A DNA stretch of 64,000 bases. It comes from Cephalotus follicularis (lineage: Eukaryota; Streptophyta; Magnoliopsida; Oxalidales; Cephalotaceae). A program made the position numbers and the translations under genes. The notes under the pieces were generated by a model that saw nothing but the letters and a program-made list of their open reading frames with translations, was not told where the DNA came from and searched no databases. This document shows positions 4,474-54,905 of the stretch, in pieces (the first letter of the stretch is position 1; each line of letters starts with the position of its first letter). Location of the stretch: NCBI GenBank assembly GCA_001972305.1, contig BDDD01005226.1:1-64000 (forward strand). The letters are read 5' to 3'.

Positions 4474-5802
4474 TGAAATAAAACACTCTTGCAATATACA
4501 AGAGGGGGGGTGAATTGAATATTGAAGTAAATATGGAAATTTAAAAACTTTAAATGTAAATAGACAAGGAAAGAAAAACTTCTCTGAAATTTAGAGTGGT
4601 TCGGCTAACTCTTGCCTACATCCACTTTTCTCAAGGTAGCTCCTTGAGTTTCCACTATCTCGATTTGATTAAGGCAGCAAATCGTTACACCTCACAAATT
4701 CGTGATTGACCTCAATCACAAGACTTTGACCTCAAAGCCTTAGAGGATTCTCCTCTTTTACAAGTAATATGAAAATGTTTGCAAGAACCTCTTAAATAGG
4801 TTGATGTGAATAAATATAGCTCACAAAATGAAACACTCAGATACACTCAAAGAATGAAGCTTAGAAGCCTTGTTGAACAATGTAGAGCACTTTGAGCTTT
4901 TCGCACACTAGAATGCTTGAATTGGATTTCTCTTGATGTTGTGTGATTTAAGTAGATAATTCTGAATTGTTGTAGTTCGGTATGTTTCTCCGAGGTTTCA
5001 TGCTTCCTTTTATAGCCAGAAAAGATTTGTAGCCGTTGCTTAATTTGTGGAAGCTTTTGATTTAATAATGTGAGTTGCAATTATTGAATTTTATCTCTGC
5101 TGGTATAAAGACGTCGACTTCTTTGTGAAAGGCGTTGATGTCTTTTCAGTTGGTAGCCGTTAGAAGTGGTTGAACTAGCCGTTCCAGGTTTCCCGGGTGT
5201 TGTTCACTTGAAAAGGCGTCGACTTCTTTTGAAAGGCGTCGATGTCTTTTCTGGGAAATCTCCAGGTCTTGAAAGTTTGAACATCACATCGATCTCTTCC
5301 CTTGGAGTCGATGCTTTTTCTGGGAATTGTAGGTGGCTCTGTAAATGGCGTCGATCTCTATTGAAAGGCGTCGATGTCTTTTTATTTGGCGTCGATGTCT
5401 TTGATTTAGAGGTCGATGTCTTTGATTGCAATTTCATACAGTAGATTCTGGTTTAGAAAATGACTAAAAACGTCGATATTATCTAGGAAGTAGTCGATGT
5501 CATCTTGAAAGTAGTCGACGTCTTTTAGAAGTAGTCGATGTCTTTTGGTACGGACGTCGATGCCATTACTGGAAGGACGATGTCTTCTTTGTAGTTAATC
5601 CTGCACTAAAGACGTCGATGTTATTTGGAAGGGGTCGACTTCTTTCGTACGGACGTCGATGGTTTTCCTTGATAGTCGAATTCTTCTTCTGCAGATGGTA
5701 TATTGCATTGATTTTGAACTTGTAATTCCTTGCACATCAAGTAAATTAGTTAAATGCAAATATGTTATCATCAAAACAAGGATTGAGACTAAATCGTCAA
5801 CA
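4474..5802 (-). mobile_element. Solo LTR, copia-like, nested in A1
   Basis: This 1329-bp segment begins TGAAATAAAACACTCTTGC and ends AAATCGTCAACA. It is flanked by the perfect 5-bp duplication AAGTT (4469-4473 and 5803-5807). The uninterrupted A1 3' LTR confirms the insertion point. Read on the minus strand it starts TGTTGACGATTTAGTC and continues TTTTGATGATAACA, a beginning I associate with plant Ty1/copia LTRs, so I orient it minus. No internal region remains; it is a solo LTR left by recombination. It carries an array of TCGA-centred motifs at 5100-5690. Confidence 0.85.
5100..5690. repeat. Degenerate array of CGTCGATGTCTTT-like motifs
   Basis: About 20 copies of a core such as GGCGTCGATGTCTTT, AGTCGACGTCTTTT or GACGTCGATG occur at irregular spacing of 15-45 bp. 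The TCGA centre is nearly invariant while flanking bases vary. It is not a simple tandem satellite because spacers differ in length and sequence. Compare 19911-20160 and 29617-29972. Confidence 0.85.
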
Positions 5803-5923
5803 AAGTTGTATGGCTTTTTCGCTGTATAGAGTAGGCTTTAATTAGTGCCCAACTCATGGATTAAGTGACCGATCGAACGTTAGTGATGTCTCGGGACCTC
5901 CTACGGGTTCGAGTTGTCACAGT

Positions 5924-5933
5924 TGGTATCAGA
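5924..5933 (+). promoter_or_regulatory. Primer-binding site of A1
   Basis: TGGTATCAGA begins two bases after the 5' LTR end. It matches the first ten bases of the initiator-Met tRNA type site TGGTATCAGAGC, then diverges (ATAGAA). Confidence 0.85.
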
Positions 5934-6220
5934 TAGAACAGTTGGGCACTAGCTAAGCCTGATTGATGGCTATAGATTGATTGAATGAACATGCATGACT
6001 TTTGTGTTTACATTTGTCGATGCTTTGATTGGATATGTGCATTTATTAATGATAGCTTCTATATAAGGTAGAGACAAGGAAAATAGAGGACAGAGAGGCC
6101 AAAGAGGAAAGAAAGATGCATAGAGAAATGTTTGGCCATTGAAAATGAATCAGTATATGAAAATCAAGCACCGACTTTTGATGAAAATGCTCCACCTCTT
6201 GGAGATGATCATGCTACATG

Positions 6221-7245
6221 GAGAGAAATGAGCACAGCTGTGCAAAAATGAATGAACTGTTATTGAGAATGGATGCAAAGAATGAACATCGACAGAAGAG
6301 AGATGATGTTTTAACAAGGTTTATGAAGTTGTATCCCCTAGTTTTCAAGGGAGAGATGGATCCAGTAGTAGCTGACGAGTGACTTATATACATAAAGAAG
6401 ATCTTTACCATTACAGAGGCTACAGATGAACAAAAGCTTTCCTTGGAAACTTACATGCTACAAGGAGAAGCTGAACATTGGTGGACGTTGGTTCAGGATA
6501 TATGGGAGCTTAATGACACACCAAGAGCATGGGAGACTTTTGGGACAGAGTTCAATGCTCGGTTTTACCCCGAAGACATCAAAGACAAGAGGGAAAAAGA
6601 GTTTGCCAACCTGAAACAAGGGGACATAACAATTGCACAGAATGAGAGCTAGTTCATGAAACTGTCTCGATAAGCTTCGTACCTTGTGCAAGATGAGGAA
6701 AGAAAAGCAAAGAAGTTTCTACGGGGATTACGGATTGAGCTCCGGAGTAAGTTGATTGCACAGGACTTGAAAGTTATGGCAGAAGTGACAGATAGGGCCA
6801 AACAGTTAGAGGACATATCTGATGAGTTCAAGATGCTGAGCATTCAGACAGGTACTAGACAGTATCGTACTTATGGCAGAATGATCAGAGTGGTTCTTCT
6901 AGAGGTAAGTCAGCTAAGACAAATAGTAGTGGCTCATCGAGTGGATCACTAGTGGGTTTTACAGAGGGGGTTCTTTTAGGGTGACGTCCATGCTGGTTCT
7001 GAAGGGAGTGGAGGACAGACACAGTTTATAGATGACAGGAGACAGTTGCGCAATTCCCATCGACAGAACCTATCTAGAGCACCCAGCCAGGGTACTCAGT
7101 CTAGGTTCTCCAATGCAAGGAACCAGCCTGCACAAGTGTCATGCATACATTGTCAAAGGACCAATAATACTCTAAACTATCGCCGATACTTGGGGAGTTG
7201 CATGCGATGTGGAGAGATGAGACATATGGTTAGAGATTGACTGCA
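6221..7245 (+). pseudogene. Family A gag polyprotein remnant
   Basis: The region encodes a retrotransposon capsid (gag) protein broken by stops and frame changes. The best preserved block (6443-6652) reads LETYMLQGEAEHWW and then FNARFYPEDIKDKREKEF, typical of the plant Ty3/gypsy gag domain. After a stop (TAG at 6650) the frame resumes at 6686 with a conserved segment containing KAKKFLRGL and AKQLEDISDEFK. Near 7193-7240 a zinc knuckle CMRCGEMRHMVRD is visible, but its last cysteine codon is TGA, so the CCHC finger is cut at its final ligand. Gag would package the element RNA. No pol follows. Confidence 0.85.
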
Positions 7246-7547
7246 AAGGACAAATAATAGAGGATAGTCACCATTTTGATAGAACATCTGCTACAGCCTA
7301 AATCATAGGCACGACCTTAGTATCAGCCACCATAAACACAGTATCAGACTCCACCCGCACAGACTACTAGTGCAAAGAGTTCTTCTACAGGGACAAGACT
7401 GTCGATCGAGAAACAGCCAGCGAGCGGTCAGACTAGCCTGTACAACATGATTATGGGTAATGCTACAGATACGGGAATGGTGTAGGGAGGTAAAGTTATG
7501 GGTACAGATATGGTTATGGACAGAAATTCTGAGGACAAATGTTTTTT

Positions 7548-7560
7548 AAGGAGGCGAGAA
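7548..7560 (+). promoter_or_regulatory. Polypurine tract of A1
   Basis: AAGGAGGCGAGAA lies immediately before the 3' LTR and follows 'ttctgaggacaaatg', a degenerate form of the end-of-pol/PPT junction seen in plant Ty3/gypsy elements. The A2 copy has AAGGAAGGGAGAA at the same place. Confidence 0.75.
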
Positions 7561-9870
7561 CGTAGCGTCCCAAACATCCCCCTTATCGCTTTAGTATATA
7601 TTTCATCATTTCGTCATGGCCCATAGATAAATTGAATAATGTATGATCATATGAATATTGATGGAGTGGAGTATTTTCAATACTCATTTGGAATGATTGT
7701 ATGTCTGTTTACTGTATTGATATTGCATGGGGATAGAGTTAGTGAGAAACCTATAAATAGAGCCATTAAACACATAAACCTCTCATTTCTCTCTTATCTC
7801 TTTCTCTCTCTCTCTACAGTAAACTCTCTCAAAACTCACCCAAAACCACTGATTGGCATGGAAAATTGAAAGGGAAGGGTTGTAGATTGATCAGAGACTT
7901 GATTGACACAAGATTGGAGCTCCACAATCCAAAGACTTAAGTTCTTTTTCTGATTTCTGACCCTAGAAACCAAGATCAAACTACAATCTTTGGTAGAAAC
8001 CTTCAATACCTAAATATGTTATGATTTACATTTATATGCATATGTATGAACTGTTTTCATGGACTAGAATGGATTGAATGGGATTAAAATTGAATGCTAG
8101 AGAGTTAGGTCTAAATGAGGGCTTTTGACCTAGAAATTGATAGGTTGAATTAAAATGCTTGAAAACGATTTTAATGGCATAGAAATGGTTAATAGGACTT
8201 GTATGGAACTTGGATTGAAAAGATTTGAAGGAAAAGTGTTGATTCACAAACTTTTTGGCAAGAACCCTAAGTTCTGCTGAACTAAGCGTCGATGGCTACG
8301 CTCTAAGCATCACCGCTTCACCTTTATTTCGAAAAGGAATTCATTTTAACCGTTAGCGCTTTGCCTTCTTTAGGCAGCGCTTGGCTAAACGTTCGCTTAG
8401 GCCTTCTTCCAAATTATTTTGAAACCTCTGTCTCTAAGCGCTAATGCTTGGAGTTTAACTGATGACGCTTAAGTGAAATGCGTCATTTCTTAAGTTTTAA
8501 GTGTTGCCGCTTAGACCTGTAATTTTTTTGTAAATGTTTTCAAAGAAACTTTTGGAAAGGGTTTTCTTCCGAGACCTTTCCTAGCCCCGTGCAAAGTGAT
8601 AACTGGGTTTCTTTCCAGGTTTTTAAAGATAATATAGCAAGGGAAAAAGGGTAGTGTCTATTCGAGCTTCATGACTAACCCAGAGCTGTGTGCCACCTTC
8701 GGGAGGTTAGATGTCATCGTTCTAGAGTTGTGTACCACATTTGAGGAACTTGAGACCCATGTTAGCTACTATCAATGGAATGATGGATAATTGTTGTCTA
8801 ATCCTTGAGACGTGTGCCACCTATGGGAGAATTTAAACTTGTATGGCCCTAGAGCTGTGTGTCACCTTCATGAGGGTTATACTCATGTGTAGTGCAGCCA
8901 CATAATTAACCTTAGAACCATGTGCTACCTTCAGGAGGTTAGCGTTGTGGTCTAAGAGCTGTGTGCAACCTTTGTGGGACTTGAGACTTATGTGAGCTAC
9001 TGATAGTGATTGCTTGATTGATTTGACATGATGGAGTGGATCCGTAACTAGTCTAATGCCTATGGGTTACATATAGGCGATTAGTTCTAGTTGGACTTAC
9101 CATCTACGGTAAGCTACTCGATGTTCAAAACCTTGAGCTATGTGCCACCTATTTAGGGGATTTATACTTACTGATATTGATTATTGGTTAACTATTTATA
9201 TATGCTGGTATGAGATAGTGTATATATCTAGTTAACCGTTCAATTGTCTGATACATGGATGGATAGGAGTGACTGATTAGATTAACAGTCTATATATATG
9301 CTGGCATGGGATGAATATATATATATATATATATAGATTCGTTAACCATAGTTGTTCATGTATATTGCCATGACATGCATTGATAAATGTGATATCTACT
9401 CATATCATCAACATAGGGGTTAAGTTTCCAGGAGACCTTTGAGCTAACCCGTCCTTCAGGATGGGACATCTTTATATGTTGGCAGGAACAAATGGATTGG
9501 AGGCTAACGACAGTGGTCATAGACAGGGAAATGATTGATAGTATGGATGCATGGAGCCTAGATGTATAGATGCCACAGATTAGGGTTTTATTGTATAAGT
9601 ATTGAATTGTATGAGTCGTAAAAGATAATATGCATTTGTTTTGAATTGTAAAAGATTGTAAGGATGTTTATGAAATGGCATGTATTGATATTGGATGGTT
9701 TAAGGATTAAGAATCAATTGAATGGATACAAGCACATATTGTTAAAGTTTTAAGTTGTAATATTTTTACGCTATATAGAGTAGACTTTAACTAGTACCCA
9801 ACTCATAGATTAAGTGAATGATCAGACGTTAGGGATGTCTCGAAACTCCAAACAGATTCAGGGAGTCAAA
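7561..9870 (+). repeat. 3' LTR of A1
   Basis: Uninterrupted 2310-bp LTR. Its start reads CGTAGCGTCCCAAACATCCC (the expected TG has mutated) and it ends GAGTCAAA before the duplication GAGAG. It is homologous to 2312-5921 along its length and shows the empty site for the solo LTR at 4474. Confidence 0.85.
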
Positions 9871-10160
9871 GAGAGTATAAGAAAATGAAATTTGCTTTCA
9901 TACCATTCACCCCTTTTGATATATTATAGATTATCGATGTTTTAGAAAACTTAGATTGCACAAAATTACTACTTGCGCATAATGGATATGACTAGTTATA
10001 TGTGACTATTTTACAATGCTGTTAAAATCGGATTAGACGTCGAACCATAAATATCAGAGGTAGAATGGTTTGAGATTTAACCGGAGTCGAAAAGGGGTTG
10101 CAAGTGTAATTAAATATTTATTTTATTGTCAATATAATAGAATTCATAATATTTATACAT

Positions 10161-10330
10161 GAGTAATGCTATTCGTCATGAATTTGTGTCTTGAAAGATG
10201 TGACACTTATTAATGCGTGTCATACATCATAACATTTATAGATCATCATCTATGCATTATTCATTAACAAATGCCACATTATTCGATACACAAATTCGAA
10301 TTAAAAATTTGGGACAAAAAATATTATTCA
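10161..10330. mobile_element. MITE-like inverted-repeat element
   Basis: The left end GAGTAATGCTATTCGTCATG and the complement of the right end TGAATAATATTTTTTGTCCC are related. Inward, AATTTGTGTC faces GATACACAAATT. Related elements with the same GAGTAATG end lie at 10761-10927 and 11167-11345. No coding content. Confidence 0.5.
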
Positions 10331-11142: not shown

Positions 11143-11435
11143 TTGTTAAATGTTACAATATATTAAGAGTAATATTTTTTGTTTCGTATTTTTATTTTGA
11201 ATTTTTGTCCTAAATAATATTGTAATTATTTATGAATGACATATAAATAATGATGTATATATATTATGATATATAGCATGCATTAATAACTGTCACGTTA
11301 TTCAGAACATAAATTCGAGATACAAATTTAAGTCGAATAACATTAATAATAACGGATTAATGAATGATCTAACTGATTCTCCTTTTTTTCAACCAATCCA
11401 GTCAGTCCAATCGAGATTTAACAGCCGTTCTTTCT

Positions 11436-12393: not shown

Positions 12394-12624
12394 GTGAAAC
12401 CCGTCGAGGGGAGACGAACTTCCCCTTGGGCGGTCAGGGGACAACAATCCCCTGGGAAAAAGACCCCCCTGGGGGCAAGGGACAACCATCCGAGATCCCC
12501 CAAACGCTCAACTTACACTAAGGAGACGGGATCTCTCCCCGTCCATGTACCCAAGGGATCCACTAGGGCGCACCGGACAAAGTGTATCCAGGGGCCGAGC
12601 TGGTCCGAGGTTGGGAGGATGGGC

Positions 12625-12925
12625 AATTCAACAAAGTCTCCCCCAGGGGAGCACTCAACAAAAGACCCCCCAGGGGGCATTTCACAAAAGACCCCCCAGG
12701 GGGCATTCCAAAAAAGATCCCCATGGGGCAATTCAACAAAGCCTCCCCCAGGGGAGCACTCAGCAAAAGACCCCCTAGGGGGCATTCCAAAAAAGACCCC
12801 CAGGGGGCAATTCAACAAAGTCTCCCTCAGGGGAGCACTCAACAAAAGACCCCCGGAGGGCAATTCAACAAAGCCTCCCCCAAGGGAGCACTCAGCAAAA
12901 GACTCCCCAGGGGGCATTCTTCGGT
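12625..12925. repeat. Array of ~27-bp units with CCCCCAGGGGG palindromes
   Basis: About 11 units of the form CAACAAAGCCTCCCCCAGGG or CAAAAAAGACCCCCAGGGGG. Each has a 4-5 bp inverted repeat of C and G runs, so each unit can form its own small hairpin. Units alternate between types ending GGAGCACT, GGGGCATTC and GGGCAATT. The array lacks stop codons in several frames, which produces long spurious reading frames on both strands. The density of strong hairpins suggests an RNA or DNA structural role rather than protein coding, but this is inference. Confidence 0.85.
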
Positions 12926-14517: not shown

Positions 14518-14619
14518 CTACATTCCTGCCTTCATATCTCTCCATCCTCATAAATACTTACTCAACTTCTACTACTAGAGACTATACTTCTATAACCAAC
14601 TAGCTATTAGGGTTTTGAA

Positions 14620-15144
14620 ATGGCTTCAAAAGCCTCAGCATCCCTTGCTCTCTTTTTCTCACTCAACATTCTCATTTTTGCTAGTGCCTCTAACCCTTCT
14701 CCTTCTCCTTCTCCTTCTTTTTTTTACCCTTATATTCCAAAACCAAGTACAAATCCAACATTGGCCCCTAGTCCATCAGGCCCACCAAAGTCGAATACAA
14801 TCCCAACCCCTAGTCCATCCGGTCCGCCAAACCCGAATTCAACCACTACCCCAAGTTCTTCCGGCACACCAAAGCCAAATCCATCTTCGAGCTCATGCCC
14901 TAAGAATTTCCTTAAATTAGAGGTATGTGTCAAACTGCTTTCAATTCCTGTTATCACCATTCCTCTCGAAAAAAGACAATGCTGCCCTCTTCTTGAAGGA
15001 CTTCTTGATCTTGAGGTTGGTGTTTGCCTTTGCACTGCTATCAAAGCCAATGTTTTGGTTACCAAACTAAACGTCCCAATCGCACTTAGCTTGATACTCC
15101 TTAATTGTGGAAAGAAAACTCCTCCTGGCTTCCAATGTCCCTAA
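14620..15144 (+). CDS. Hybrid proline-rich protein, 8-cysteine motif (HyPRP; DC2.15/EARLI1-like)
   Basis: An intact single-exon gene of 174 residues. Residues 1-24 form a secretion signal (MASKASASLALFFSLNIL, then a cleavable ASAS). Residues 25-91 are a proline/serine-rich wall-type region with a threefold PSPSGPP-like repeat. Residues 92-174 are the eight-cysteine domain of the lipid-transfer/seed-storage superfamily. Its spacing is C-X9-C-X17-CC-X13-C-X-C-X24-C-X9-C, which fits the HyPRP class closely. Members are secreted, associate with the cell wall or plasma membrane, and are linked to development, cold or defence responses; the role here is unknown. The start is the first ATG of the frame, after GAAA. 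It is the only intact host gene I recognise, and its neighbours are all transposons. Confidence 0.93.
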   Translation: MASKASASLALFFSLNILIFASASNPSPSPSPSFFYPYIPKPSTNPTLAPSPSGPPKSNTIPTPSPSGPPNPNSTTTPSSSGTPKPNPSSSSCPKNFLKLEVCVKLLSIPVITIPLEKRQCCPLLEGLLDLEVGVCLCTAIKANVLVTKLNVPIALSLILLNCGKKTPPGFQCP

Positions 15145-17340: not shown

Positions 17341-18111
17341 ATTTATTTCAATTTTGAAGGAGTTGGATAAATTTTCACTTGGACCAATTAATATGATCAA
17401 TCGATTTGAGTTTGAATGATTTTGGCCTAGGTCAATTGAGTTATTAAGTGATTTTATTTAGAAATATAAATAAAAAGACTTGCCCACGAGACCAAAGAGA
17501 TTATTTAAAAAAGAAATTGATGCTCGGTCTTCATTGCATGGAATATGTAGTGACCAAATGCCTTTCAATATTTCAAAAGAACAAAAGAACCAATGTGCTG
17601 CTTATCCAACACGTTTTTGTTGGCTCTAAATGAAGAGCGATTCTTATATGTATTCGGGGTAATGCACTTAATTAATGTTATATTGTCACGTAAATATAAT
17701 AATAAAATTTACCTATAAAATAGAAGATAAAATAACGAATGACCCACGTAGATTTTTTCCTCACTAAAGAAACGCATCTATCCACATTGACAATCTACAC
17801 CCATTAAATCCAACCAATCAATGACGCGATTGGCCCTTATAAAATTGTTCTTAATCCTCTAGCTTAGGGTTTGATTGGAGACAGGATTTTTCTCGGTGTT
17901 TTTGTATTTTGAACAGTTGCTCTCGCTCTCTCTATTCTTCTTTATATGCACACGCATTAAAAGGTCATGGGCATGAAGTCTTATAGAGAGATTCTGAAAG
18001 GACCTGATTGACCCTTTTCTAGACGTGATTTTCAGTGATTCTGGTTTGGACTCTTGGTGTTTTATCTCGATTTGATGCTAACCAGTTGTGAATCCTCCAT
18101 TGAATATCGTT
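17341..18111 (+). other. Unassigned stretch; possible orphan 5' end of a gene
   Basis: Most of this is AT-rich with no frame of note. At 17838 TTATAAAAT resembles a TATA box. A CT-rich leader follows, and at 17968 an ATG opens a 14-codon frame (MGMKSYREILKGPD) ending in TGA. A family B LTR fragment begins at about 18112. It could be the promoter and first exon of a gene cut off by the transposon, or chance. Confidence 0.25.
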
Positions 18112-19695: not shown

Positions 19696-20345
19696 TAGAG
19701 TTGCAAGTGGTCCGGGTCGGGCCGAACCGCGGCCCGGACCGTTCGGGACCTGCGAAAGGCGGTTGGGTTCGTGAACCGGCCCGCTTTTCTCACGGTTCGG
19801 GCCGGTCCGGTTCATGGAGCTAAAAAGTGAGAACCGAACCGGTTCGTGAACCTTAACCGTAAGCGAGGCGGGCCGGTTCGGGCCGGTCCGGGCCGGTTCA
19901 GTTCATATTGGCGTTGACGTGTATGATAGGCGTTGACGTCTATCTCCTTATGCGTTGACACCTTTGGTTCTTTGCGTTGACATCATAAGCTTCTGTTCGA
20001 TTTTTGCTTTATTCACGTTGACGCGTATGTATGACGTTGACGCTAATGTCATTTGAGTTGACTTCATTTGCCTTGTGCGTTAACGTCCATTTGAATTTGA
20101 GAATCCTTTTGTGTGTGGCTGTATTTGGCGTTGACGTGTACCATAGGCGTTGACGTCTATCTCGGGTTCACGGTCCGGTCCGGTCCGGTTCAACGGTTCT
20201 GAACACTCTGAACCGGCCAGGACCGCTCTCAAGGGCTGGTTTAACCACGGGTCTGCCACGTGGCACACGGTCCGGGCCGGTTCAAGGACCACACGGGCCA
20301 GTTCGGGCCGGTTTCACGGTTCGAACCGGCCCACTTGCAACTCTA
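19696..20345. mobile_element. Non-autonomous hAT element
   Basis: Perfect 15-bp terminal inverted repeats TAGAGTTGCAAGTGG and a perfect 8-bp target duplication CATATGAC (19688-19695 and 20346-20353), both diagnostic of hAT transposons. The 650-bp body has GC-rich subterminal repeats of GGTTCGGGCCGG type at both ends and a central array of GCGTTGACGTCTAT-like motifs. No transposase. Confidence 0.95.
19911..20160. repeat. Degenerate array of GCGTTGACGTCTAT-like motifs
   Basis: About ten copies (GCGTTGACGTGTAT, GCGTTGACGTCTATC, ACGTTGACGCGTAT and others) spaced irregularly by about 15-50 bp in the centre of the hAT element. The core TTGACGTCT resembles the TCGATGTCT and TCGACGTCT cores in the LTR arrays at 5100-5690 and 29617-29972. 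Confidence 0.9.
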
Positions 20346-28908: not shown

Positions 28909-31344
28909 TGTAACGACCCAAATTCCCTTTCTGTACTGTTGAACACTGTTCATGCATATACTGTACTACATTGTACCATATTGAACAGTATAGTATTGTA
29001 TTGTATTGAATTGAGGTATTCCTATACCTATTGTTATTGTATTGATTATATGCATATATAGTCAGAATTTTGGGCTGAGTTTCAGAGAATCGGCAGAATT
29101 GACTATATAAGTCAATTCTTTACTCTCATTCTTTCATTCTCTCATTCTTCTCCTTCTCTCTATCCTTCTCCTCTCTCTCTCTCTTTCTCTTGGGCAGCTT
29201 CCATCTTTCTCCATCAACAAGGACATCGATTGCAAGTCTCTTCCTTGTAGATTGAACAACATAGTAACCGGTTCTTGAGTGTTCCCGGCCATCGATCAAT
29301 CGTTAGCTCATTTGTTGAAGCTTCGATTATAGGTAGTACTTCTCTACTTGTATTCCCTATTGCTTAATTGATTGATTGATTGAATTGCATGATTGATTGA
29401 ATGATTGTATCGTATTGAATTGTGAAACTAGGGTTTTTATTGATTTCCCTTGATCTAACTGATCTAGGAAGATTGAAACTGATATTGGAAGGTTGTAACA
29501 AGTTTTAATAACCTTAAAAGACCGATTTTAACCATTGGTTTTCAAAGAATGGGTTTTAAATGGATTTTGACTTGAGATTTGTTGGTTTTCTACACAAAAA
29601 TTGACACTACCCAGCAAAGACATCGATCCCCAGCCAATGGACATCGATGTCTTTCGCTTTAGAGTACAGTATCCTTGATTCCGCAGCAAAGACATCGATG
29701 TCTTTGAAAGACATCGACGTCTTTGAAAGACATCGACGTCTTTGCCTTGACATGTCTTCTCCCCAGAGAAGACAGAAGACATCGATGCCCATTCTTAGGT
29801 ATTTTTATTGAAACGCGTCGACGTCTTTGTCCAAGGACATTGACGTCTTCGGCCAGAACTTTACATACACAGAGAAAGACATCGATGTCTTTCAAAGGCA
29901 TCGATGTCCTTCTACCATTTTAAAGGCATGCCCTGATACGCATCGATGTCTTTGTCCAAGGACATCGACGCCTTTTGGGCTGAATGCAATTTTTAGCTGT
30001 TTTAAAGCTAGTTTTTAACTCTTTTTCACATTGCCGCTTGACCGGATCCTCACTTGAGGTATTTAAGCGTTTGAAACATAGTTTTACATGGTTTTCAAAG
30101 ATTGAATTGATAAATTGATAAAGTGACAACTTGAGCCATAGGCAACGACCCAATGAATTTCTTTGATCGGATAGATGTTCTTTCCTATCTCGTTATTTTA
30201 TTATCACCGTCTATTGGCTATTGATTGATTGATTGATTGCTTGAGTCATAAGTGTCGTGAGTCTAAGTTCGGAACGTTGGACGCACATTCCCATTTCTCC
30301 ATTAGACATCACCACTTATTGACATTGTACTGACAGATTGATTGTATTGTATGGATCATATAGAGCGACCTTATGATTCGTGTCGGCATGTTAGGTTGTT
30401 GACTCTATCCACCTATTCTGTCGATCATTTCATTTATTGTATTGTATTGACCTGTTGACGAGCAGTACTATATTGATTAACGATTGATGCTCCCTTGAGG
30501 GTCGTAGCTCCCTGACGGTATAGTAGCTACCTCGGTTGTAGCTCATCGAGACTGTATTGACCCAGCCATAGGCTGGAAGATCTACGAGTTCCAGACCTGA
30601 TCAGTCTGAGAACAGTAGATAGATCTCCCACCCTTTTTTAAGGAATACTTTCCATGGGATTGATCATTTCCATTGACTGACATTGTATTGACCCGAGGTC
30701 GCATGCTCTATATGATTGATTGATTAGGTGTTTTATACACCACCACTGAGTGTCTGCCATTGATTGATTATTATAGATCATATACATATGCTCTGTTATG
30801 GGCCAGTGTCATACGGATAGTCCGATCGCCAATTGTATTCATGCATTTGCCATGTCATGTATTGATATTATACACCGCACATTGATATTGCATAGACTGT
30901 CACTGATATTGCACATTGTACATGCATACAGGCTGTATGAGGTTTCTGCTTAGCCAGTGTGACTAACCCCATCATTCGTGGTGGGGCTGTGTTGTACATT
31001 TTGTGTGCGGCATAAGTAGGGCAGCAGGTATCAGCGGACCAAAGGATTGAAGATTCCATCGACCGATGGGATCGTTTTGGATTTGACAAGAGTTCATTGC
31101 AATGTTGTATTGAAGAGATTGATAAGTGCATTGTAATGAGATGACCAGTATTGTATTGCAAAAGATTAATATTGTAAAGCACTGTATTGTATTGTATCGC
31201 ATTGATCGATTTTGTATTGTATCTTCCGCTTATTATAAAGTTTTAAGTTTTTTCGTATTTTTATATTGATAGTTCCGACCATTGTATTGTATATTGGATT
31301 GAGAGTAATGCCACGTGTCCACCCTTTGGGCGCGGAGTGTTACA
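28909..31344 (+). mobile_element. Solo LTR nested in the MULE terminal repeat
   Basis: 2436 bp from TGTAACGACCCAAATTCCC to GCGGAGTGTTACA. The flanks TCAGG (28904-28908) and TGAGG (31345-31349) form a 5-bp duplication with one mismatch. Joining the flanks restores AGCACCTGAA (complement), identical to the opposite terminal repeat of the MULE, which confirms the insertion. There are many TTGTATTG/TGATTGATTGA runs and a TCGA-centred array at 29617-29972. No primer site, polypurine tract or coding region. Confidence 0.88.
29617..29972. repeat. Degenerate array of GACATCGATGTCTTTG motifs
   Basis: About 14 copies of a near-palindrome such as AAGACATCGATGTCTTT, AAGACATCGACGTCTTTG and GCGTCGACGTCTTTG, irregularly spaced. 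Individual copies can fold on themselves. The core matches the array in the unrelated solo LTR at 5100-5690. Confidence 0.9.
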
Positions 31345-45387: not shown

Positions 45388-46673
45388 GCATAGTCCGATA
45401 AACGAATACTACATGCCCGATTTTCGTAAAAATTTAAGAGTTAGAATTATTTTCAAGTTTTTCAAGAAACTTTTATGTTTTTGTTTATGTTTTGAAGAAA
45501 TTCTCTGTTGAAAAATGTATTATTGGAACTCTGATCTGCTGAACCTATGAGGTGAGTCTCTGATGGGAGGCTTGGCCTCGTAGCGGGTGCGACAGATTCT
45601 AGCTGGGCTGGGTCTGGGCATGTTAATTCTCATCAAAAGTTGGTGCTTGATTGTCATGTATCGATTCATCTTCAATAGCCAAATAATTCCTCCGTGCCCT
45701 TCCTCTTCAACCTTTTCGTCCTCTATTTTCCATGTCTCTACCTTGTATAAAAGACCATCGTTAATTAACACACATATATTCAATATCAAAAGAACTGACA
45801 TGTAAACACACAAGTCATGCATATCCATTCAGTCAATCTATAACAATCAATCAGACTTAACTAGTCGGCCAACCCTTCTCTGATACCAATTGTGACACCC
45901 CGAACTCGTAGGGGGTCCATGAAATCACCCAAATCCGTTCAGTCACTTAATCCATAAGTTGGGTACTAGTTAAAGCCTACTTCGTGCAACGACAAATTGT
46001 AAATACTTAAAAACTTTATGCATATGTGCGGCATAGTCCTATAAACGAATACTACATGCCCGATTTTCGTAAAATTTTAAGAGTTAGAATTATTTTCAAG
46101 ATTTTCAAGAAACTTTTATGTTTTGTTTCTGTTTTGAAGAACTTTCTGTTTTAAGATGCTTTTCTGAAACTCTGTTCTGCTGAACCTACTAGGTGAGTCT
46201 CTGTTGGAAGGCTTGGCCTCGTAGCGGGCACGACGGATTCCAGCGGGGCTGGATCCGGGCGTGACATGGGCTGGGTCCGGGCGTGTTAATTCTCATCAAA
46301 AGTTGGTGCTTGATTGTCATGCATCGATTCATCTTCAATAGCCAAATCATTCCTCTGTGCCCTTCCTCTTCAGCCTCTTCGTCCTCTATTTTCCATGTCT
46401 CTACCTTGTATAAGAGACCATCGTTAATTAACACACATATATTCAATATCAAAAGCAATGACAATGTAAACACACAAGTCATGCATATCCATTCAGTCAA
46501 TCTATAACAATCAATCAGACTTAACTAGTCGGCCAACCCTTCTCTGATACCAACTGTGACACCCCGAACTCGTAGGGGGTCCATGACATCACCCAAATCC
46601 GTTCAGTCACTTAATCCATAAGTTGGGTACTAGTTAAAGCCTACTTCGTGCAACGACAAATCGTAAATACTTA
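45388..46673. repeat. ~643-bp tandem duplication spanning B2 end and A2 leader
   Basis: The block starting GCATAGTCCGATAAACGAAT at 45388 recurs at 46031. Each unit runs through the family B LTR end, the A2 leader (TTAATTCTCATCAAAAGTTG), the complementary primer site, and the first about 140 bp of the A2 5' LTR (TGTGACACCCCGAACTCG at 45891 and 46555). Unit 2 additionally carries 'cgggcgtgacatgggctgggtc' at the LTR end. The duplication happened after B2 inserted, since both units contain the B2/A2 junction. Confidence 0.8.
46543..46552 (-). promoter_or_regulatory. Primer-binding site of A2
   Basis: Complement of TCTGATACCA is TGGTATCAGA, identical to the A1 site, two bases from the 5' LTR. A duplicate lies at 45879-45888. 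Confidence 0.85.
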
Positions 46674-48827
46674 AAACTTTATGCATATGTGCGTGTATCC
46701 ATTCAAACTTTCTTAAACGTCAATATCATACATCCTCAATACATACCTTAAGTCCATACAAAACCTTACAAATCCATAATATTCATAATCCATATCAATT
46801 TATAAAATCCATACATAAAACCATAATTGGAACATCCATAGGTCCATGCTCCAAGTATCCATGTTGTCAGTGATCTCTCTGTCCATGGCCACTTCACTGG
46901 CCCCTGATCAGTCTGTAACTGAAGACATAACAACGTCCCATCCCGAAGGATGGGTCAGCCAAATGGCCTCGTAGAAACTTAATCCCTATGAGTATGATAT
47001 GAGAAGATATAGCATGTATCAATGTATGTGATGGCAATATGCATAAACAGTTGTAGTCAACGAATCCATATATATAACGGTACCATATCGGCATATATAT
47101 AGATCATTAACCTAATCATACAGTACTATCCATACATCTATAAGACAATCAGGTGGTTAGCCAAATATATACACTGTCTCATAATAGCATATATAAGTGG
47201 TTAACCTAGCATACCATCATTTGTAAGTCCAACCCGACACAAGCTCAATGTTAAGAACATATAGTTGTCTACCGATAGACCGATAGGAGCTCAAAAACTA
47301 GTTGCCTATAGGTAGAACTATATAAGCTCAACTAGTTACAGATCCATACATTCGCCCGTATCTTTATTCGTAATACCGTAGCATAACGTCATACAATCAT
47401 CCGTACCGTATCGTATCATCATGAGCTTAGAACCCCTACCCCCACCGAAGGTGGCACAAGCTAGAGGCCTAGAGATCTAGTGCCTACCAGTAGACTGATA
47501 GGAGCTAAATCGGTCACGAGATCCATAACCTATCCAGACATGAGTATAAACCTTCCTGAATGTAGCACAAGCTCAAGGTTTATACATCTAGTCGCCTATC
47601 GGTAGACCAAAATGAGCTCGACTAGAATCGGTTGCCTATTGGTTGATCGATAGGAGCTCAACCAATCACGTACCATGAAAACTCTATAGACTCCATCTTA
47701 CCCTTACCCTTACCATGTCATCTTTAAAAACTGGGAAGAAACACAGCCGTAACCGTATCATGGGTCTCAAAAAGGAACCGAAAGAAAAGCAGTTTGAAAA
47801 CATACTTTGAAAACATTTTAGAAAGTCTATAGGACTTAAGAGACGACGTTTTGAACTTGGGGGTCGACGCTTACCGTTTAAGCATCAATTGTTAGGTCCA
47901 AGAGTCAGCGGTTAGGCAAGACAGTAGGTTTTGTAATTCATTTTCAGAACTTAAGTGACGACGCTTAAAGGTTAAGCGTTGTCACTTAGTTAAGTGCTGC
48001 TAGTAAGGTTAAGCACCGATAGTTTGTAAAACGATTCCGTTTCAATCAAAGCCTAAGCGACGATGCTCATGGACTCGGCATCGTCGTTTAGCACATCAAA
48101 ACCTAGGGTTCTTACTTCAAAACTTTGCAATTTTGATTCATTTCTTTAAATCTTTCAATTTCCCGTTCAATACTAGTCCTATAATCCATTTCTCTGCCAT
48201 TAAATCATTTTCAATCCTTCAAATCCATTCATTCAAGTTTTAGGTTAAAACCCCCCCTTTTTTACATAACTCTCTAACATTTCAATTCAAGCAATTCAAT
48301 CAATTTCAATCCATAATAACAGTTCATATATGTGCACATATGTGTAAATCATAGCGTATTTAGGTAGAGAAGGTTTCTATATAAGATAGAAGCTTGTTCT
48401 TGGCTCCTAGGTTGAGAAATGTGAGAAAGAGTCAAGTTCTTGGTCTATGGAGCCTTAATCTTGTGTCAATCAAGGTTTTGATCCATCATATACCATTCCC
48501 CTTTTGATTTCCCATCTCATATTTGTGTTTGGTGAGGTTTTGTGTGAGTTTGGGCTAGAGAGAGAAAAACGGGGAGAGAGAAATAGAGAAGAGATAATTA
48601 ATGAGTTGTGAAATGTGTTTAATGCTGTATTTATAGTCTCTCAACTCATGTCTACCCCTATACATAAAAAACACCATAAATAGACGTACCATCATACAAT
48701 ATGAGTATTGGAAACACTCTCATACAATACATATCCATATATATAATCACCGTCCATAATATCTATATATCGTGTTATGAAATGCAAAATATGTTAAAGT
48801 GTAAAGGGGTTGTTTTGGGGCATTACA
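46555..48827 (-). repeat. 5' LTR of A2
   Basis: 2273 bp; on the minus strand TGTAATGCCCCAAAACAACC to GGTGTCACA. Followed on the right by the target duplication GTTCG. AAGCGT/GCTTAAG array at about 47840-48110. Confidence 0.88.
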
Positions 48828-49130: not shown

Positions 49131-50339
49131 ATAGTAAAAGAACAGTGGACTCAATGAAAAATTTATAGGTTAAATTCATTATTGCCTCCTGAACTTTACA
49201 TCTTGTGTCACGTTGGCCCCTGAATTTTTTTTGAGTCAAAGTTGCCGATAAACTCATCCCCGTCCATCGCCGTTATCTCCCGTCAAATTTTCCATTCAAA
49301 ATCACTGTTAAGTGTGAGCTGACACTTTTAATACCCATATCACTTAACCCAACGTTTTTCTCAACCCATAATACTCAACTCCAACCCATCTAACCATCCA
49401 AATAAACCCGACTAAATCAGCATCGCGATTTGGGGGCAAAAGAACCCTAAAAAAACGATCACACTCATCACAAATCCTAAATCAACCACACAATAATATA
49501 TTGTCTGATGTGCTGGATGGAATATCTGGTCCAAAATCAACCAGGAATTTTGGATTCTTTGGTACGTTGAAGGTACGTTCGTATTCTGCTCTGTTTTTTG
49601 CAAAAAAAAAAATGATCAGTAATGTTGTGTAGTTTGTTAGTTTTAATTGATTTGAATGTCTAACACTATTGAATTCAATGGGTCAAAAGTGCGGTTCTAT
49701 TTTGTTTTGCTTGATTTGAAGTGAAGTTTCAATTGAAGAAAGGTAAGAAGAATTCAAACTTGACAGACACCCCTGTTGTGTCTGTCGTGCCCTGCTGTTT
49801 GAATGGAGCAGAAGAAAAAACGTTGGAGGTATTTGTAGTGTTTGTTAGGCATTAACTACACATATACTATACATTATGAAGATAATAACTTGTTTTTCTA
49901 CCATAGTCCTTGTAGTGTTTGTTAGGCATATCTGATTTTGCATCCTACTCATGTCCAATAGTAAATTAAGTCAGTCCAGCATGACTGAATGTTCTAATAT
50001 TTAGAGCACGATAGTAGGATCATTTACAATGTACATTATTTAATTCCTCTTTTCGAGGCTTGTGCAATGAATGCCTATGGTCATTATTAATAATGTTCTA
50101 AAAAATTTTCTTGAAGGATGGGAGGTTCACAGGAAGATCCTAGTGGAAGTAAATTGATTCTCTATTATGGGGGATATTTGTCCTACAATCCACCCATAAG
50201 GTACATAGGTGGAAAGATGAAAACCACAGTCTGTGACTTGTACATGTTGTCACTGTCCGAACTAAAGGCCCACATGAGTGAGGGCTTAAATGTCCATAAC
50301 TGTAGTAGGTTCTAATATTTAGAACAAAATAAGAACTTT

Positions 50340-53300
50340 TGTGATGGTTTAAAGCCTCTAGATAGTGATGGTGCTTTTTTGGAGTAGTTTAAGCTTCCCA
50401 TAGACACCATTCAGATATTTGTAGAGCATTCATTTCAAAATGCAGTGGAGAATTATCACATTCCAGAGACTCACCTACAAGTTACTGGTCCAAGTAATGA
50501 TGCTCCTCGTACAAGTGGTGATGGTGGTGGTGTTGACTTGGATGGCGATGATGAAGGTGGTCACTTTGGTTTCAATGTTGGTGGTGTTGACTTAGCAGTA
50601 GATAGGGAGGATAGTGATAGTTTGAGTGATGCTAGTTCTGAAATAGAGCATAGTTCTGATGAAGAGAGTGAGTATGCACCAGAAGGTGATGTTGTTGGAG
50701 CTGCTACAAGTGGTGCTAATGGAGTAGCTGATGATAATGAAGATGATGAGTTGTTTCAAAATAATGTGGACATTACTATTGAAGAACCAACTTTAGAATG
50801 TGATCAGTACAAGGGTGCTAATATGGATGATAGAGCTGCTAATGTTGATGGCAGTGACACTGACTTAGTTAATATCTCGACACAGGTTAGGTCTGATGAA
50901 GAGAGTGAACCTAAAATGCATGACTAAAGGCCTGGAACACTTATGCAACCGTGGTGTTTAGCTCAGTCAAAAAATTTAAGGCTGACACGCCAGGACCAAG
51001 CCCGCTGAGATCCATCGCGCTACTACGAGACCAAACCTCCTATTAGAGACTCATCTCGTAGGTTCAGCAAAACAGAATTTCAGAAATACATTTTTAAAGA
51101 TAATGAATATAAAAAGTTTAGCTAAAAACCATTTAATAAACAAAATAATTTCTTTGAAAAGTTAAAAATAAACTAAGTATAAAATTTTACGAAATTCTGA
51201 CATACAGTATCCGTTTAACGGACCTATAACCGGATTTGAAAAACCCGATAAACATTTCTATCTTAAAACCCAAAAATACTACCATCCGTCGGCAGATTTT
51301 AATAACAGAATAAACAAGATAGATTTGGGTCCCGCCCATCTCATCAGAAACAGAAAACTAATTGTCGGACCTATTCCGTCAACGGAATAAATTTTTAAAT
51401 ATAAACAATACATAAATAGAGCAAAACTCATTAAACATTAAGGCAGTAACAGAAAATTTAAAATCATATAATTAAACTTTTCAACAAAAAACTTGAAAAT
51501 AATTCTAACTCTTAAATTTTACAAAAATCGGACATATAATATCTGTTTATCAGACTATGCCTTTTGTAAAGAAAACACAATTTTATAAATTGGGCTCATC
51601 CCTTAGCAGACCAATCGAAAAATAGAAAATATGCATGGGTTGAGCTCCGCCTCAACCATATCATCAAAGCACGAAATATAAATAGGGTTCAGCCCTTCAA
51701 AACAAAACTATAAAAACATTTATCTAAAAACATAAAAAAAATGCATAGTTTAAATGCTAATGTCGTGGATGATATGCATGTGTTGCAAACTCTGGTAGGC
51801 ATGCCCTTGTGGTCTCACCTCAGCAGGCTGACTGACTTCGACTGACAGAACTCAGCAGACTAACATGTTATAACTAAAAAAAGAGGGGGGTTAGTCCACA
51901 AGACTAGTGAGATGGAACAAAAGACTCAGACAGAGTTTTGCTCGCATAAAAATGTTATTTTTCACCAAATAGTTACAAACAACTTAAATAGAATATCATA
52001 AACAGAATAAAATTTGAAATCCGATTTATAAAACAGATTATAAAATAAAAATTAACAGAGTCAACAAAAAGTCTGATTACTTTTTTGAACAGATTAAATC
52101 ATCCAAAATTCAGATATATGTAGTAGTTAACAAAGTTTAAACAGAATAACTATATAAAGATGCAATGGGTCTACAAGGTAAGGTTGACGTCTGGGCCCCA
52201 TCAGGCCAAACATCTAGTAGATAATAGTGACAATGATACCATCGTATCATAACATTAACAGATGGTCATATACGTGTAGACAGTGCCTTATGGGCAACAA
52301 TTGGATAACGAAATACAATACCGAGATCACCAGTGCATCAAAACATATTTAAATAGATTCAAACAGATACAGAAATCATTTTCTAATCAAGTACATATAT
52401 AACTGAAAACAACATCATACTATGACTAACATCATGCGAGCGTTTAAAAAACATTAAAGAATGTATCAGACATTAAAACTTAAACATATTTCAAAAATGA
52501 AGTAGATCCAAGTTCATTCTGATACGAAAATAAATAAGCGATCCCGTTTAAACATTTAAGTCATTTAAAAGAATTTCAAAATAAAACAAAGGTTAAAAAA
52601 AGGCATTCCACTCACAGAATAGACGAACAAGTCCTACGACTGGTTGCCTCCATGGCTGACCTCCAAAGCAGGATCCTCTGCCGACAGACAGACAGATAGA
52701 GACAGACAATAGACTAACATAATTCAAACATAACATAAAACATAAACCTAAACATGACTCCAACGTATACTCATTGTCATGAATGCGTTATGGCAAAAAC
52801 CAATAAAATTTCATTTAAACCTCAATTAAACACAATTTCAAAATCACTAAATCAAGTCCAAGTGGTTGTCTAGGTTATCCAATTTTGAATTATATAAAAA
52901 AGTCAAGTTCTTAAAACCACAGAAACAGGTATGGAAATACAGAATTCAACTGAAAGCAAAACTAACGGAGAAGAGTTCAAAGTTTATAAGAAACAGACAG
53001 AATAGAGTACGAAGCCGAAATCACGAAGCGAAACTAGAACGGAACACACATACATAGAAAACGGAGTCAGTGTGCTAGACACACATCAGAAACTCGCTGC
53101 AGGAGGCTGGCGGCGCACGGGCTCACTTGCCACCACTGACCTGAGCATGTTAGCCACGCGCGGTGGTCAAAAAATAGGGGAGAGGGTCGGATCTGGTGCG
53201 TCGGAGGTCGGGGATCACAGATCGGAGGTGCGTTGCTCATGACGCCGCCTCATATGGCTGGAACAAACGCATTTCACTGGGCTGTCTTCGCCGTTGACTT

Positions 53301-54606
53301 GCACTGCTGGCGTCGCCATGGGTTGGGGCTGGTCGTGTTCGACTCGCCTTGACGCGAGGATGCCGGATCTGGGCTCACCTTGCCGTGATCAAAGCCTAAG
53401 ACAGAGATCTGGCACACGACAATGCGGGGAGAGAAGCACGTGCACGGGGGCGGTTCACCGGGGCAGGGGTGGGGTCCGTTGCTCTAGAGAGGCCACAGTG
53501 GACTTGCCGGTACCTCACTGGCGTTACTTCGACAGTGACGTTGTCGGCAGAGGGAAAGAACAGGAGAGAGGAAGAGAACGGGAGAGAGGGAGAGAAAAAC
53601 AAGAGAGAAACAAATTTTTTGCATTTCATTTATACATAACCAAAACGGATTGTGTTTTGTCCAGAATTTAACTAATATTAACAGCAATTGATGTTTAGGG
53701 CATACCACTTGGCTTATTTTCTAAATTTGTCAACAATTTCCGTAAAACATCAATTAATTTAAAGCAAGAAATTTTTTTTTTGTTATACAAATAAACCATC
53801 GGAATAAAATCACACTAATAAAATTTATTAATGTCGTAATGCATATGTCATGAATGCCAGAATAATAGACTAACAGATAGACAGACTGAACGAAAGCCAC
53901 ATAGGCTCACAAACACAGACTACTAGGACATAGATGTCACAAAGGCAACAATCAGAAATTATAGAATAGATAAAGGTTATTGCATTAACTTCAGACATAA
54001 GGAGAAATGGAAGGTTTATGCACATGCTACAGGGATGAGCACATTACATGTCCCTTTTATATGTATGTTTCAGGTAGTGAAAAGAGGAAAGATGACCCAA
54101 TAGTGGTGGTGAAGAGTTTGAACAACGTGCATAAATGTCCAAGGCCAACTAAGAATAGGAATGTCAAATCACTTTGGTCGGCCAAACACTATGAGGACAG
54201 AATTAGGATTCAACCCACTTGGAAGCTGAGTGCATTTATAAGCACCATACTTAGTGACTTCAACACTGAAGTGTCTCAGAGCACATGCTAAAGGGCAAGA
54301 AAAAGAGCAAATGATGAGATTGAAGGGTCATATGAAGAGAATTTCTTGAGATTGAGAGATTATGGTAAGAGAATATCAGAAGCAACCCATGCAATACATT
54401 CATATTAAAGACAGAGGGAGCATCAGATGAGGAGTTGCCTAGATTCAATAGGGTTTATGTCTGCTTCCATGGGTACAAGGTTGGCTTCTTGACTGGTTGC
54501 AGGCCATTCATCCATTTGGATCCATGTCACTTGAAGGGGCTATGTAGGAACATGCAGCTTCTTGAACCAGTGGCAATTGATTCCAATGATGATTTATTTC
54601 TGTTGG
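50340..54606 (+). repeat. Large tandem duplication, copy 1
   Basis: Copy 2 is 54906-59172 (offset 4566). From 50340 to 54125 I found no difference between the copies reading line by line. From 54126 to 54606 there are about 20 differences, including an indel. Both copies carry the same solo LTR with the same AAGGC duplication, so the LTR inserted before the duplication. Confidence 0.93.
50983..53941 (-). mobile_element. Solo LTR of family B in the transposase gene
   Basis: 2959 bp, TGACACGCCAGGACCAAGC to ACATAGATGTCACA, flanked by the perfect duplication AAGGC (50978-50982 and 53942-53946). Joining the flanks restores the transposase frame VFSSVKKFKATIRNYR. Minus orientation by its TGTGACATC start. 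GC-rich block at 53090-53530 followed by GAGA-rich sequence. Confidence 0.93.
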
Positions 54607-54611
54607 CCTTT

Positions 54612-54905
54612 TCCACCCCGATTAAATGATTACAACATGTTATTTTGATGATTAACAACTGTAAATTACTTGTATGCATAATTCTTTAAGTTATAAATGC
54701 ATTTACCCACTTAATCTTGGGTCCAAAAGTTGTGTCAAGAGTGGTTTTGCAGGTACAGGCAATTCCAGCCGACTGGAGGGCAAATTCAGTCGACTGCATC
54801 TTCAACCTCAACCCAGAAATCTGCAGAAGCCCAGTCCAGTCGACTGCCAGCATATTCCAGTCGACTGTCAGGGTATTCCAGTCGACTGTATCAGGGTATC
54901 AGCCA
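54612..54905 (+). mobile_element. Copia-like LTR fragment at the duplication junction
   Basis: CATGTTATTTTGATGATTAA near the left side resembles the start of the copia-like LTR at 4474-5802 (read on its sense strand). It continues into an array of AGTCGACTG motifs (about 54768-54890, some 6 copies). It is cut abruptly at 54905 where copy 2 of the duplication begins. Confidence 0.6.

Follow-up and report, generated by a model that had tools for sequence, protein, structure and literature searches.

In the 64,000-nt window of the Cephalotus follicularis genome analyzed here, a sequence-only reading had noticed four repeat arrays inside different transposons and assigned all of them to one near-palindromic motif with a TYGAYGTCT core. 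This raises the question why transposable elements (TEs) of different superfamilies would carry the same array. Judging from sequence features, we consider it probable (roughly 60%) that the arrays are binding sites of a dimeric protein activating or de-silencing the elements, with several unrelated TE families using the same specificity. The scope of this evaluation is the genome of this single species; the features of the window are compiled in the table.

Table. Array-bearing elements, arrays and promoter feature of the window
Feature	Position	Strand	Remarks
F1, Sirevirus-like Copia LTR inside another element	4474..5829	-	homologous to LTRs L002/L008; LTR-start and poly-C features
TATA box of F1	5008..5014	-	95 bp downstream of F1 array, LTR orientation
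F1 array, type A dyads	5109..5660	-	19 sites with ≤2 mismatches from RTYGAYGTCT
F3, non-autonomous hAT element, 650 bp	19696..20345		TIR TAGAGTTGCAAGTGG, 8-bp TSD CATATGAC
hAT array, type D sites, GCGTTGACGTCTAT-like	19911..20163	+	10 sites at ≤4 mismatches to GCGTTGACGTCT
F2, Ty3/Gypsy LTR TGTAACGACCC...GTTACA	28909..31344	+	flanks TCAGG / TGAGG (4/5 alike)
F2 array, type A dyads	29618..29973	+	12 sites
Type C array, dyad CAGTCGACTG	54765..54889		outside the type A set

The TYGAYGTCT word is indeed shared, yet the true motif is longer. A common 18-bp dyad, AAAGRCRTCGAYGTCTTT, underlies three of the four arrays, with the variant GCGTTGACGTCTAT in the hAT array. Its consensus can be written as AAAGRC-RTCGAY-GTCTTT with the core RTCGAY, and it is dyad-symmetric outside the hAT element, where the centre reads TTGA and the site is not palindromic. 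Counting of cores with at most one mismatch from GTCGATGTCT, GTCGACGTCT or GTTGACGTCT yielded 16 in the Copia array (5100-5700; Markov mean 0.25, maximum 3), 15 in the Gypsy array (29610-29975; 0.06, maximum 1) and four in the hAT array (19905-20165; 0.08, maximum 2; 100 simulations each). The presumed tight motif in 10 to 20 copies per array is looser than claimed in the hAT element, which reaches ten sites only at up to four mismatches. While a common motif was retained for these three arrays, the fourth one (AGTCGACTG) had been grouped with them wrongly: 54760-54900 is devoid of such cores and holds four copies of AGTCGACT, sharing only the TCGA centre with the 18-bp dyad.

Across the 1.58-Gb assembly, AAAGRCRTCGAYGTCTTT matched 66,647 and 66,681 times per strand, perfect palindromes being scored on both strands, compared with 308 and 268 matches of the reversed pattern. 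Exact searches of both strands of the whole assembly gave 116,703 versus 709 reversed matches for GTCGATGTCTTT, 63,151 versus 232 for TCCAGTCGACTG and 7,304 versus 29 for GCGTTGACGTCT; AAGCGTCGACGCTT was detected at 18,108 sites versus 15 for its reversed control. Within 200 kb sampled without regard to the motif (L009-L028; N bases in three of the 20 stretches, namely 4,161 in L017, 1,514 in L020 and 25 in L026), all 61 strong dyads sit in clusters, which are found in eight stretches, whereas shuffled palindromes matched the same 200 kb 0.5 times on average and twice at most. A further set, L029-L048, was picked for holding the motif. Dyads within arrays occur in mixed orientation, and the families F1, F2, F4, F5 and F8 all carry the same extended dyad.

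Assignment of the hosts to different superfamilies was confirmed by protein domains, which revealed two Copia lineages (one Sirevirus-like), two related Gypsy families and one hAT; F6 (L011), F7 (L012) and F8 (L023, L044) stand outside this tally, and L003-L007, being overlapping copies of L002, were omitted from the family analyses. The F1 LTR of the window is without a coding part and its Copia typing is based on L009, a Sirevirus-like relative with the domains Retrotran_gag_2, zf-CCHC, rve and RVT_2; the RT of the second Copia family is only 32% identical to that of L009. A poly-C integrase signal near the LTR end is represented by CACCCCCCC in the window and by a longer C run in L009, and a candidate polypurine tract, AAAGGGGGAGATTGTTGAG, adjoins the L002 LTR, with none seen for L009. 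The element, initially placed at 5100-5690, proved to be Copia-type as proposed, its array lying within a larger minus-strand LTR. The flanks of this LTR (ends 4472 and 5830) match near-contiguous DNA at 46669-47206 and 46289-46645, and no clean target-site duplication was seen at its ends. Similarly, the solo LTR assumed at 29617-29972 is only the array of a 2.4-kb LTR. It was typed as Gypsy from L060 and L042, with RVT_1, RT_RNaseH, Integrase_H2C2 and SH3_Tf2-1 of L060 located directly upstream of, and on the same strand as, the polypurine tract and the L042 LTR. For the hAT element, 40 of 1,006 genomic candidate copies were scored, and six of 12 copies examined showed the TIRs with perfect 8-bp TSDs, the pattern leaving the remaining six unsettled. 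L016, sharing stretches of 75-86% identity with the hAT element of the window, encodes a transposase with a Dimer_Tnp_hAT domain (5.9e-24). Transposases of the hAT superfamily bind subterminal repeats, and L016 likewise has arrays on both sides of its transposase gene; the related dyad, however, is also present in LTR retrotransposons, which use no hAT transposase.

Spacers turned out to be free in sequence, as had been claimed, but constrained in length: 71 of 127 core spacings (values >110 bp excluded) fall at 18-23 bp, mainly at 19-22 bp. Phasing past this first spacing class has moderate support. A search for same-strand pairs with allowed centre distances of 25-55 bp reported 40,016; of the first 100, tallied by hand from coordinates, 54 lie at 40-44 bp, 43 at 46-52 bp, three at 31 bp and none at the other 18 distances. 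These pairs are not independent, since the same LTRs, in multiple copies, account for many of them. The half-site spacing of auxin-response elements was also weighed and set aside. Cores are better conserved than array spacers in 28 of 30 LTR pairs and less conserved in two (chosen representatives, with pairs sharing sequences), and between LTR subfamilies this difference exceeds neutral simulation. Pooled comparison of cores with the LTR outside the arrays gave a smaller excess (F2, 0.84 versus 0.78; F5, 0.86 versus 0.83), the values being 0.86 versus 0.77 for F4 and 0.78 versus 0.73 for F4b. A TATA box is located 93-102 bp downstream of the array in all six F1/F1B LTRs (102 bp in L025) and 101 bp past the array in the L016 transposase copy, with a background of 4.9% for 85-105 bp. 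This does not constitute a general rule, failing in F2 (one of ten at that distance, a TATTTAA) and F5 (none of six); F4 has a TATA box in four of eight cases, at 187-240 bp.

Several explanations compete for these patterns. Compositional chance is strongly opposed by the controls, the reversed patterns being 117 to about 1,200 times and the shuffled palindromes about 100 times less frequent, so that the motif does not occur at the frequency of shuffled sequence. Together with it, a slippage satellite receives hardly any credence: a few short tandem runs of 19-21-bp units would fit, but mixed orientation and diverged spacers speak against it, in agreement with the sequence-only reading, and one dyad recurs in unrelated hosts. 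Spreading of arrays from one family to another at the DNA level (recombination, template switching or insertion of an array segment), followed by neutral homogenisation, could account for short unmasked inter-family matches (window 29686-29774 versus L002, 94 bp, 78%; L015 versus L020, 89 bp, 79%). With masked cores, however, matches across the arrays linked no family pair at E<1e-6, ruling out the descent of all arrays from one captured segment. Furthermore, the arrays differ in both spacers and order, and homogenisation would be expected to keep spacers too and not cores alone. We thus judge this spreading improbable; a homogenising copying process within arrays may be a contributor. Equally remote as slippage or chance is a role of the arrays as small-RNA targets or sources. 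Non-coding TE repeats are often siRNA targets (PMC10398659), but the shared word of only 18 bp, flanked by differing spacers, is shorter than 21-24-nt small RNAs, and RNA pairing requires neither dyad symmetry nor a spacing preference.

A more serious competitor, although we regard it as rather unlikely, is a system resembling the VANC targets of VANDAL elements, for which the binder is known and the hosts are Mutator-like (Hosaka 2017, PMC5735166; Sasaki 2023, PMC10398659). In such a scenario, a sequence-specific anti-silencing protein encoded by one family would strip methylation via the arrays, and other families would have evolved or borrowed the sites. Likeness exists in the short motifs, which in the VANC case also form arrays in non-coding TE DNA and differ between related TEs, with the VANC6 motif recurring in the unrelated AT9TSD1 (PMC5735166); correspondingly, homologous LTRs here carry either type A or type B arrays. 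Of the changed central CGs, 49 of 65 are TG or CA, as decay of methylated CpG would give, a number possibly inflated by the TTGA centres of type D. On the other hand, the VANC motifs (YAGTATTAY, AGTTGTCC/AGTTGTAC) differ from the dyad, the families typed include no Mutator-like host, and the TATA-proximal position in F1 and the hAT element fits activation equally well. A DUF1985 search gave no matches here but none in 14 control genomes either, and thus carries no weight.

Palindromic LTR arrays as such have a precedent in the Sirevirus RM. Bousios et al. (2010; PMC2829016) describe it, without an assigned function, as lying in the upper LTR half upstream of the TATA box, each element having at least eight and at most 32 copies; in some Sireviruses it also precedes the env-like gene. 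They report a CGG-CCG core for most of these motifs, and the RM as Sirevirus-specific and absent from the other Copia elements examined. F1/F1B resemble it by a palindromic LTR array upstream of the TATA box, and L009 by a second array directly after pol; the TCGA centre is common to our dyad and the Sirevirus motifs of Tnd-1 (ACAATCGATTGT) and Vitis (CGGTCGACCG) (PMC2829016). As the core of F1/F1B, RTCGAY, is without CGG-CCG, which also applies to the known Sirevirus Tnd-1, we designate them only as Sirevirus-like. Unlike the RM, the same dyad is found here in Gypsy LTRs and the distant Copia family, and in a related form in hAT. The plastic CpG islands of Del (Gypsy) are likewise a CpG-rich, length-variable LTR region, with neither a common dyad nor a connection across superfamilies described in the part of the source considered (PMC4029996). 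Within the literature searched, to which subscription papers and preprints do not belong, no report of a single dyad common to Copia, Gypsy and hAT came up, and the matches listed for the exact dyad strings include no plant-transposon title.

Dyad symmetry, spacing of about two helical turns, mixed orientation, core conservation and TATA position favor protein-binding sites, one of the options put forward by the sequence-only reading. A dimeric DNA-binding protein would recognize AAAGRC-RTCGAY-GTCTTT, and its binding to numerous sites spaced by roughly two helical turns would turn on the promoter of the element or lift its silencing, i.e., the LTR promoter in Sirevirus-like Copia and the transposase promoter in hAT. 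Unrelated TE families would thereby depend on, or exploit, one recognition specificity. Our guess for the binder is a BED-finger/hAT-dimerisation protein, either TE-encoded or a domesticated host gene, because of a BED-like finger in the array-flanked hAT transposase and the sites of DREF/ZBED1. The finger stays below the cut-off (a 60-residue piece of the L016 ORF versus zf-BED: E=0.039, 14.4 bits with a cut-off of 20.6, 38 of 44 profile positions), and a scan of the whole ORF gave no zf-BED at E up to 5. DREF and ZBED1 are animal proteins combining a BED finger with a C-terminal self-association domain; their CG-centred dyad binding sites are TATCGATA and TGTCGYGAYA, and self-association is required (PMC6179265).

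While arrays in Sirevirus LTRs are known, one dyad across Copia, Gypsy and, in a related form, hAT of a single genome is apparently new with respect to the literature searched, and such sharing points to a single recognizer. More tentatively, and with less than even odds, one dimeric specificity might serve as a common regulatory currency of Copia, Gypsy and hAT in this genome, shifting over time (types A, B, C and D, TCGA or TTGA centre) with arrays of homologous LTRs being rewritten wholesale to follow, i.e., a multi-family TE network in co-evolution with a single BED-type protein encoded by the host or a TE. The defined 18-bp dyad provides a bait for finding the putative recognizer. If a shared recognizer proves true, convergence of unrelated transposons on a single input for activation or anti-silencing would be demonstrated, by which transposon bursts would be linked and the host would gain a single control point.

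We called cores in the window at no more than one mismatch to GTCGATGTCT, GTCGACGTCT or GTTGACGTCT, with the expectation taken from a Markov simulation. The sequence-only reading had assigned four arrays to one core. Three of them indeed share it, with 16 cores in the 5.1-kb array (Markov mean 0.25), 15 in the 29.6-kb array (0.06) and 4 in the 19.9-kb array (0.08). The 54.8-kb array has to be removed from this set, yielding no core under the same rule and being made of a separate dyad, CAGTCGACTG, with the TCGA centre as the sole common part. The duplication surrounding it (see table) may have arisen recently, may reflect one element with long repeats or may be an artefact of assembly.

Throughout the assembly (1.577 Gb in 9,746 contigs), exact matches on both strands were counted with the reversed pattern as control. 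GTCGATGTCTTT occurred 116,703 times (709 reversed), TCCAGTCGACTG 63,151 times (232), AAGCGTCGACGCTT at 18,108 sites (15) and GCGTTGACGTCT 7,304 times (29). The full dyad AAAGRCRTCGAYGTCTTT gave 66,647 and 66,681 matches per strand versus 308 and 268 for the control, each perfect palindrome entering on both strands. A sample of 20 stretches of 10 kb, picked without regard to the motif, contained 61 dyads (at least 15 of 18 matches), confined to five stretches and all having a neighbour within 150 bp. Compared with 60 shuffled palindromes of equal make-up (mean 0.5 hits, maximum 2), this sets the dyad count clearly above chance. A motif-free scan of sample and window for 8-mers with at least five copies within some 500-bp stretch returned 62, of which 13 recurred in at least two places, 12 of these belonging to the TCGA/TTGA dyad class. 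Among 12 four-base centres tested, only TCGA and ACGT, the latter an offset reading of the TCGA motif, showed many copies of non-simple half-sites. These data cover one assembly of one species, judged a plant from the elements it carries, with ~0.29 Mb outside the window (overlaps included) and families sampled, not censused.

The extended dyad (type A), one flank being AAAG-like and the opposite flank TTT, is common to the host families F1, F2, F4, F5 and F8. Its core RTCGAY is matched at 0.90-0.99 per position, sites being defined by the remaining positions. Non-CG central dinucleotides were found at 65 sites, comprising 26 TG and 23 CA, the pattern expected of methylated CpG decay, although TTGA centres of type D may inflate this excess.

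Array hosts, dyad types and further features (L numbers, fetched stretches of the same assembly; TSD, target-site duplication)
Feature	Location	Observation
F1, Sirevirus-like Copia LTRs	window 4474-5829; L002, L008, L035	
F1B, relatives of F1	L009, L025	
Second type B array of L009	L009 9370-9457	adjoins copia pol frame, upstream of 173-codon open frame
F2, Ty3/Gypsy	window 28909-31344	LTR TGTRACGACCC...GTTACA
F3, hAT element	window 19696-20345	650 bp; perfect 8-bp TSD in 6 of 12 copies examined
Exact direct repeat	L026 6302-7955 and 8347-10000	1,654 bp; same array present twice
F5 LTR		TGTTAGATAT...CA; TSD CCTTG in L031; primer-binding site tggtatcagagc after L043
Type B dyad, AAGCGTCGACGCTT	L009, L025, L011, L015, L019, L027	7 arrays in sample and window; own genome-wide arrays
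Type C dyad, CAGTCGACTG	L022, L027, window 54765-54889	4 arrays in sample and window; own genome-wide arrays
Type D dyad, GCGTTGACGTC	mainly hAT	9 calls, 3 of these on type A arrays
Direct duplication	window 50340-54607 and 54906-59174	4.27 kb, 99.5% identical, around 298-bp stretch with type C array
Array of other word, GCCGACCG	window 28-624	dense, up to 16 copies per 600 bp; unrelated to TCGA dyads
Repeat array	window 12621-12919	unit 26-27 bp, around AAAAGACCCCCCAGG
Tandem repeat	window 61919-62140	40-bp unit, 5.6 copies, 90% matches
ORF, host-type gene	window 14611-15141	match to hydrophobic seed protein/lipid-transfer families

L009 encodes copia gag, integrase and RT and has type B arrays at two places, within the LTR and immediately 3' of pol, the latter a placement as described for env-bearing Sireviruses. 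F2 was assigned to Ty3/Gypsy because RVT_1, RNase H and a Tf2-1-like integrase (L060) end just upstream of a polypurine tract and the L042 LTR on the same strand. A truncated upstream F2 LTR (L041) shares 94% identity with L042 across 1,747 columns, and a solo copy with TSD CTTTT lies within a copia pol gene (L020). The 2.7-kb F4 segment is situated downstream of a Gypsy integrase (L026) and upstream of a Gypsy RT (L027), thus representing an LTR. In F5, Copia gag, integrase and RVT_2 (L059) adjoin the L034 LTR on its strand, the RT being only 32% identical to that of L009 over 267 residues, and a second array resides in the internal 5' part (L043, L059). A transposase-encoding F3 relative (L016) has arrays flanking the gene on both sides. 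Domains and TSDs therefore uphold the proposed spread over different superfamilies, namely Copia (F1, F5), Gypsy (F2/F4) and hAT (F3).

Descent of all arrays from one captured segment was weighed by comparing 48 arrays plus 500 bp of flank with cores masked. Three groups emerged, of 25, 10 and 7 arrays, along with six singles; in the largest group F1, F4 and F8 were joined solely via short hits outside the arrays. Two inter-family matches of ~90 bp each, seen without masking, were lost once cores were masked. Consequently, the common part is the dyad and not the spacers, which argues against a single captured segment. Considering the 67% identity between the RTs of F2 and F4 and the kinship of F1 and F1B, at least four host lineages carry type A or D arrays, with F2/F4 counted as a single Gypsy lineage next to F1, F5 and hAT.

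Dyads exceeded spacers in conservation in 28 of 30 LTR-subfamily pairs (pairs share sequences), e.g., in the window F1 LTR with 0.875 and 0.847 toward L002 and L008 (spacers 0.705 and 0.716). A neutral simulation using the same site-calling rule, free of CpG effect and indels, reached 0.71-0.74 at a spacer identity of 0.71 and 0.65-0.69 at 0.64. Pooled identities of dyads, spacers and LTR outside arrays were 0.84, 0.75 and 0.78 (F2), 0.86, 0.69 and 0.77 (F4), 0.78, 0.63 and 0.73 (F4b), and 0.86, 0.77 and 0.83 (F5); the dyad excess shrinks against outside sequence, spacers being the least conserved class. The hAT family lends no support to core conservation, since its sites (only two per copy pass the caller) were 0.69-0.72 identical in three L013 pairs, with 0.62 in spacers and 0.85-0.87 outside. 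Homogenisation within arrays could alternatively keep the cores.

Centre-to-centre distances up to 110 bp in 16 representative arrays (n=127) fell within 18-23 bp in 71 cases. Among the longer spacings, phasing at 10.4 bp gave R=0.38 when those of 24-60 bp were taken (n=38; best R reached by 7 of 2000 jittered sets) and R=0.28 when all of at least 24 bp were included (n=56; 30 of 2000). Array sites point both ways. A TATA box follows 93-102 bp 3' of the array in six of six F1/F1B LTRs and, in the hAT element L016, 101 bp beyond position 6900 and upstream of the transposase frame; for random positions, these TATA patterns occur at 85-105 bp in 4.9% of cases. F8 showed a TATA at 88 bp in L023, on scanning two orientations of which one gave the box, and none in the L044 scan, F4 at 187-240 bp in four of eight, F2 one TATTTAA among ten, and F5 none in six scans downstream of the array.

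According to excerpts of PMC2829016, Sirevirus LTRs contain palindromic motifs, 8 to 32 in number, that precede a TATA box. These motifs are mostly of the CGG-CCG kind and are described as specific to Sireviruses. F1/F1B are of this kind, whereas F2 and F4 as Gypsy elements and F3 as a DNA transposon lie outside the excerpted description, which thus fails to cover these hosts. Our literature search found no motif array common to Copia, Gypsy and hAT. Within the literature searched, palindromic arrays in Sirevirus LTRs are known already, while one array motif across Copia, Gypsy and hAT is new.

Dyad sites, two-turn spacing, mixed orientation and a TATA-proximal position in two host types add up to the anatomy of a protein-binding region, fitting the suggestion of protein-binding targets. 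Judged from sequence, we consider it probable (roughly 0.6) that the arrays are sites of a shared dimeric binder activating or de-silencing these elements; the present evidence fits activation and anti-silencing of the VANC kind (VANC, anti-silencing proteins of VANDAL elements) alike. As a guess, a BED-finger/hAT-type protein is a candidate binder because the L016 transposase has a finger and, besides its hAT dimerisation domain, a Hermes-like core (E=2e-4), and because of the sites of DREF and ZBED1, animal proteins of the same architecture as claimed for L016. These bind TATCGATA and TGTCGYGAYA and require self-association (PMC6179265, in excerpt). The CxxC...H...H finger of L016 was read by eye; a 60-residue piece matched zf-BED over 38 of 44 positions (E=0.039, below cut-off), and zf-BED was not listed when the entire frame was scanned.

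Between the window F1 LTR and L009, array flanks are 79% (136 bp) and 87% (83 bp) identical with type A versus type B dyads inside, indicating that the dyad switched while the LTR persisted. This resembles the co-evolution of VANC proteins and their targets reported in excerpts of PMC5735166. With a shared binder, one dimeric protein would occupy clustered dyads of several TE families and would activate or de-silence the host elements.
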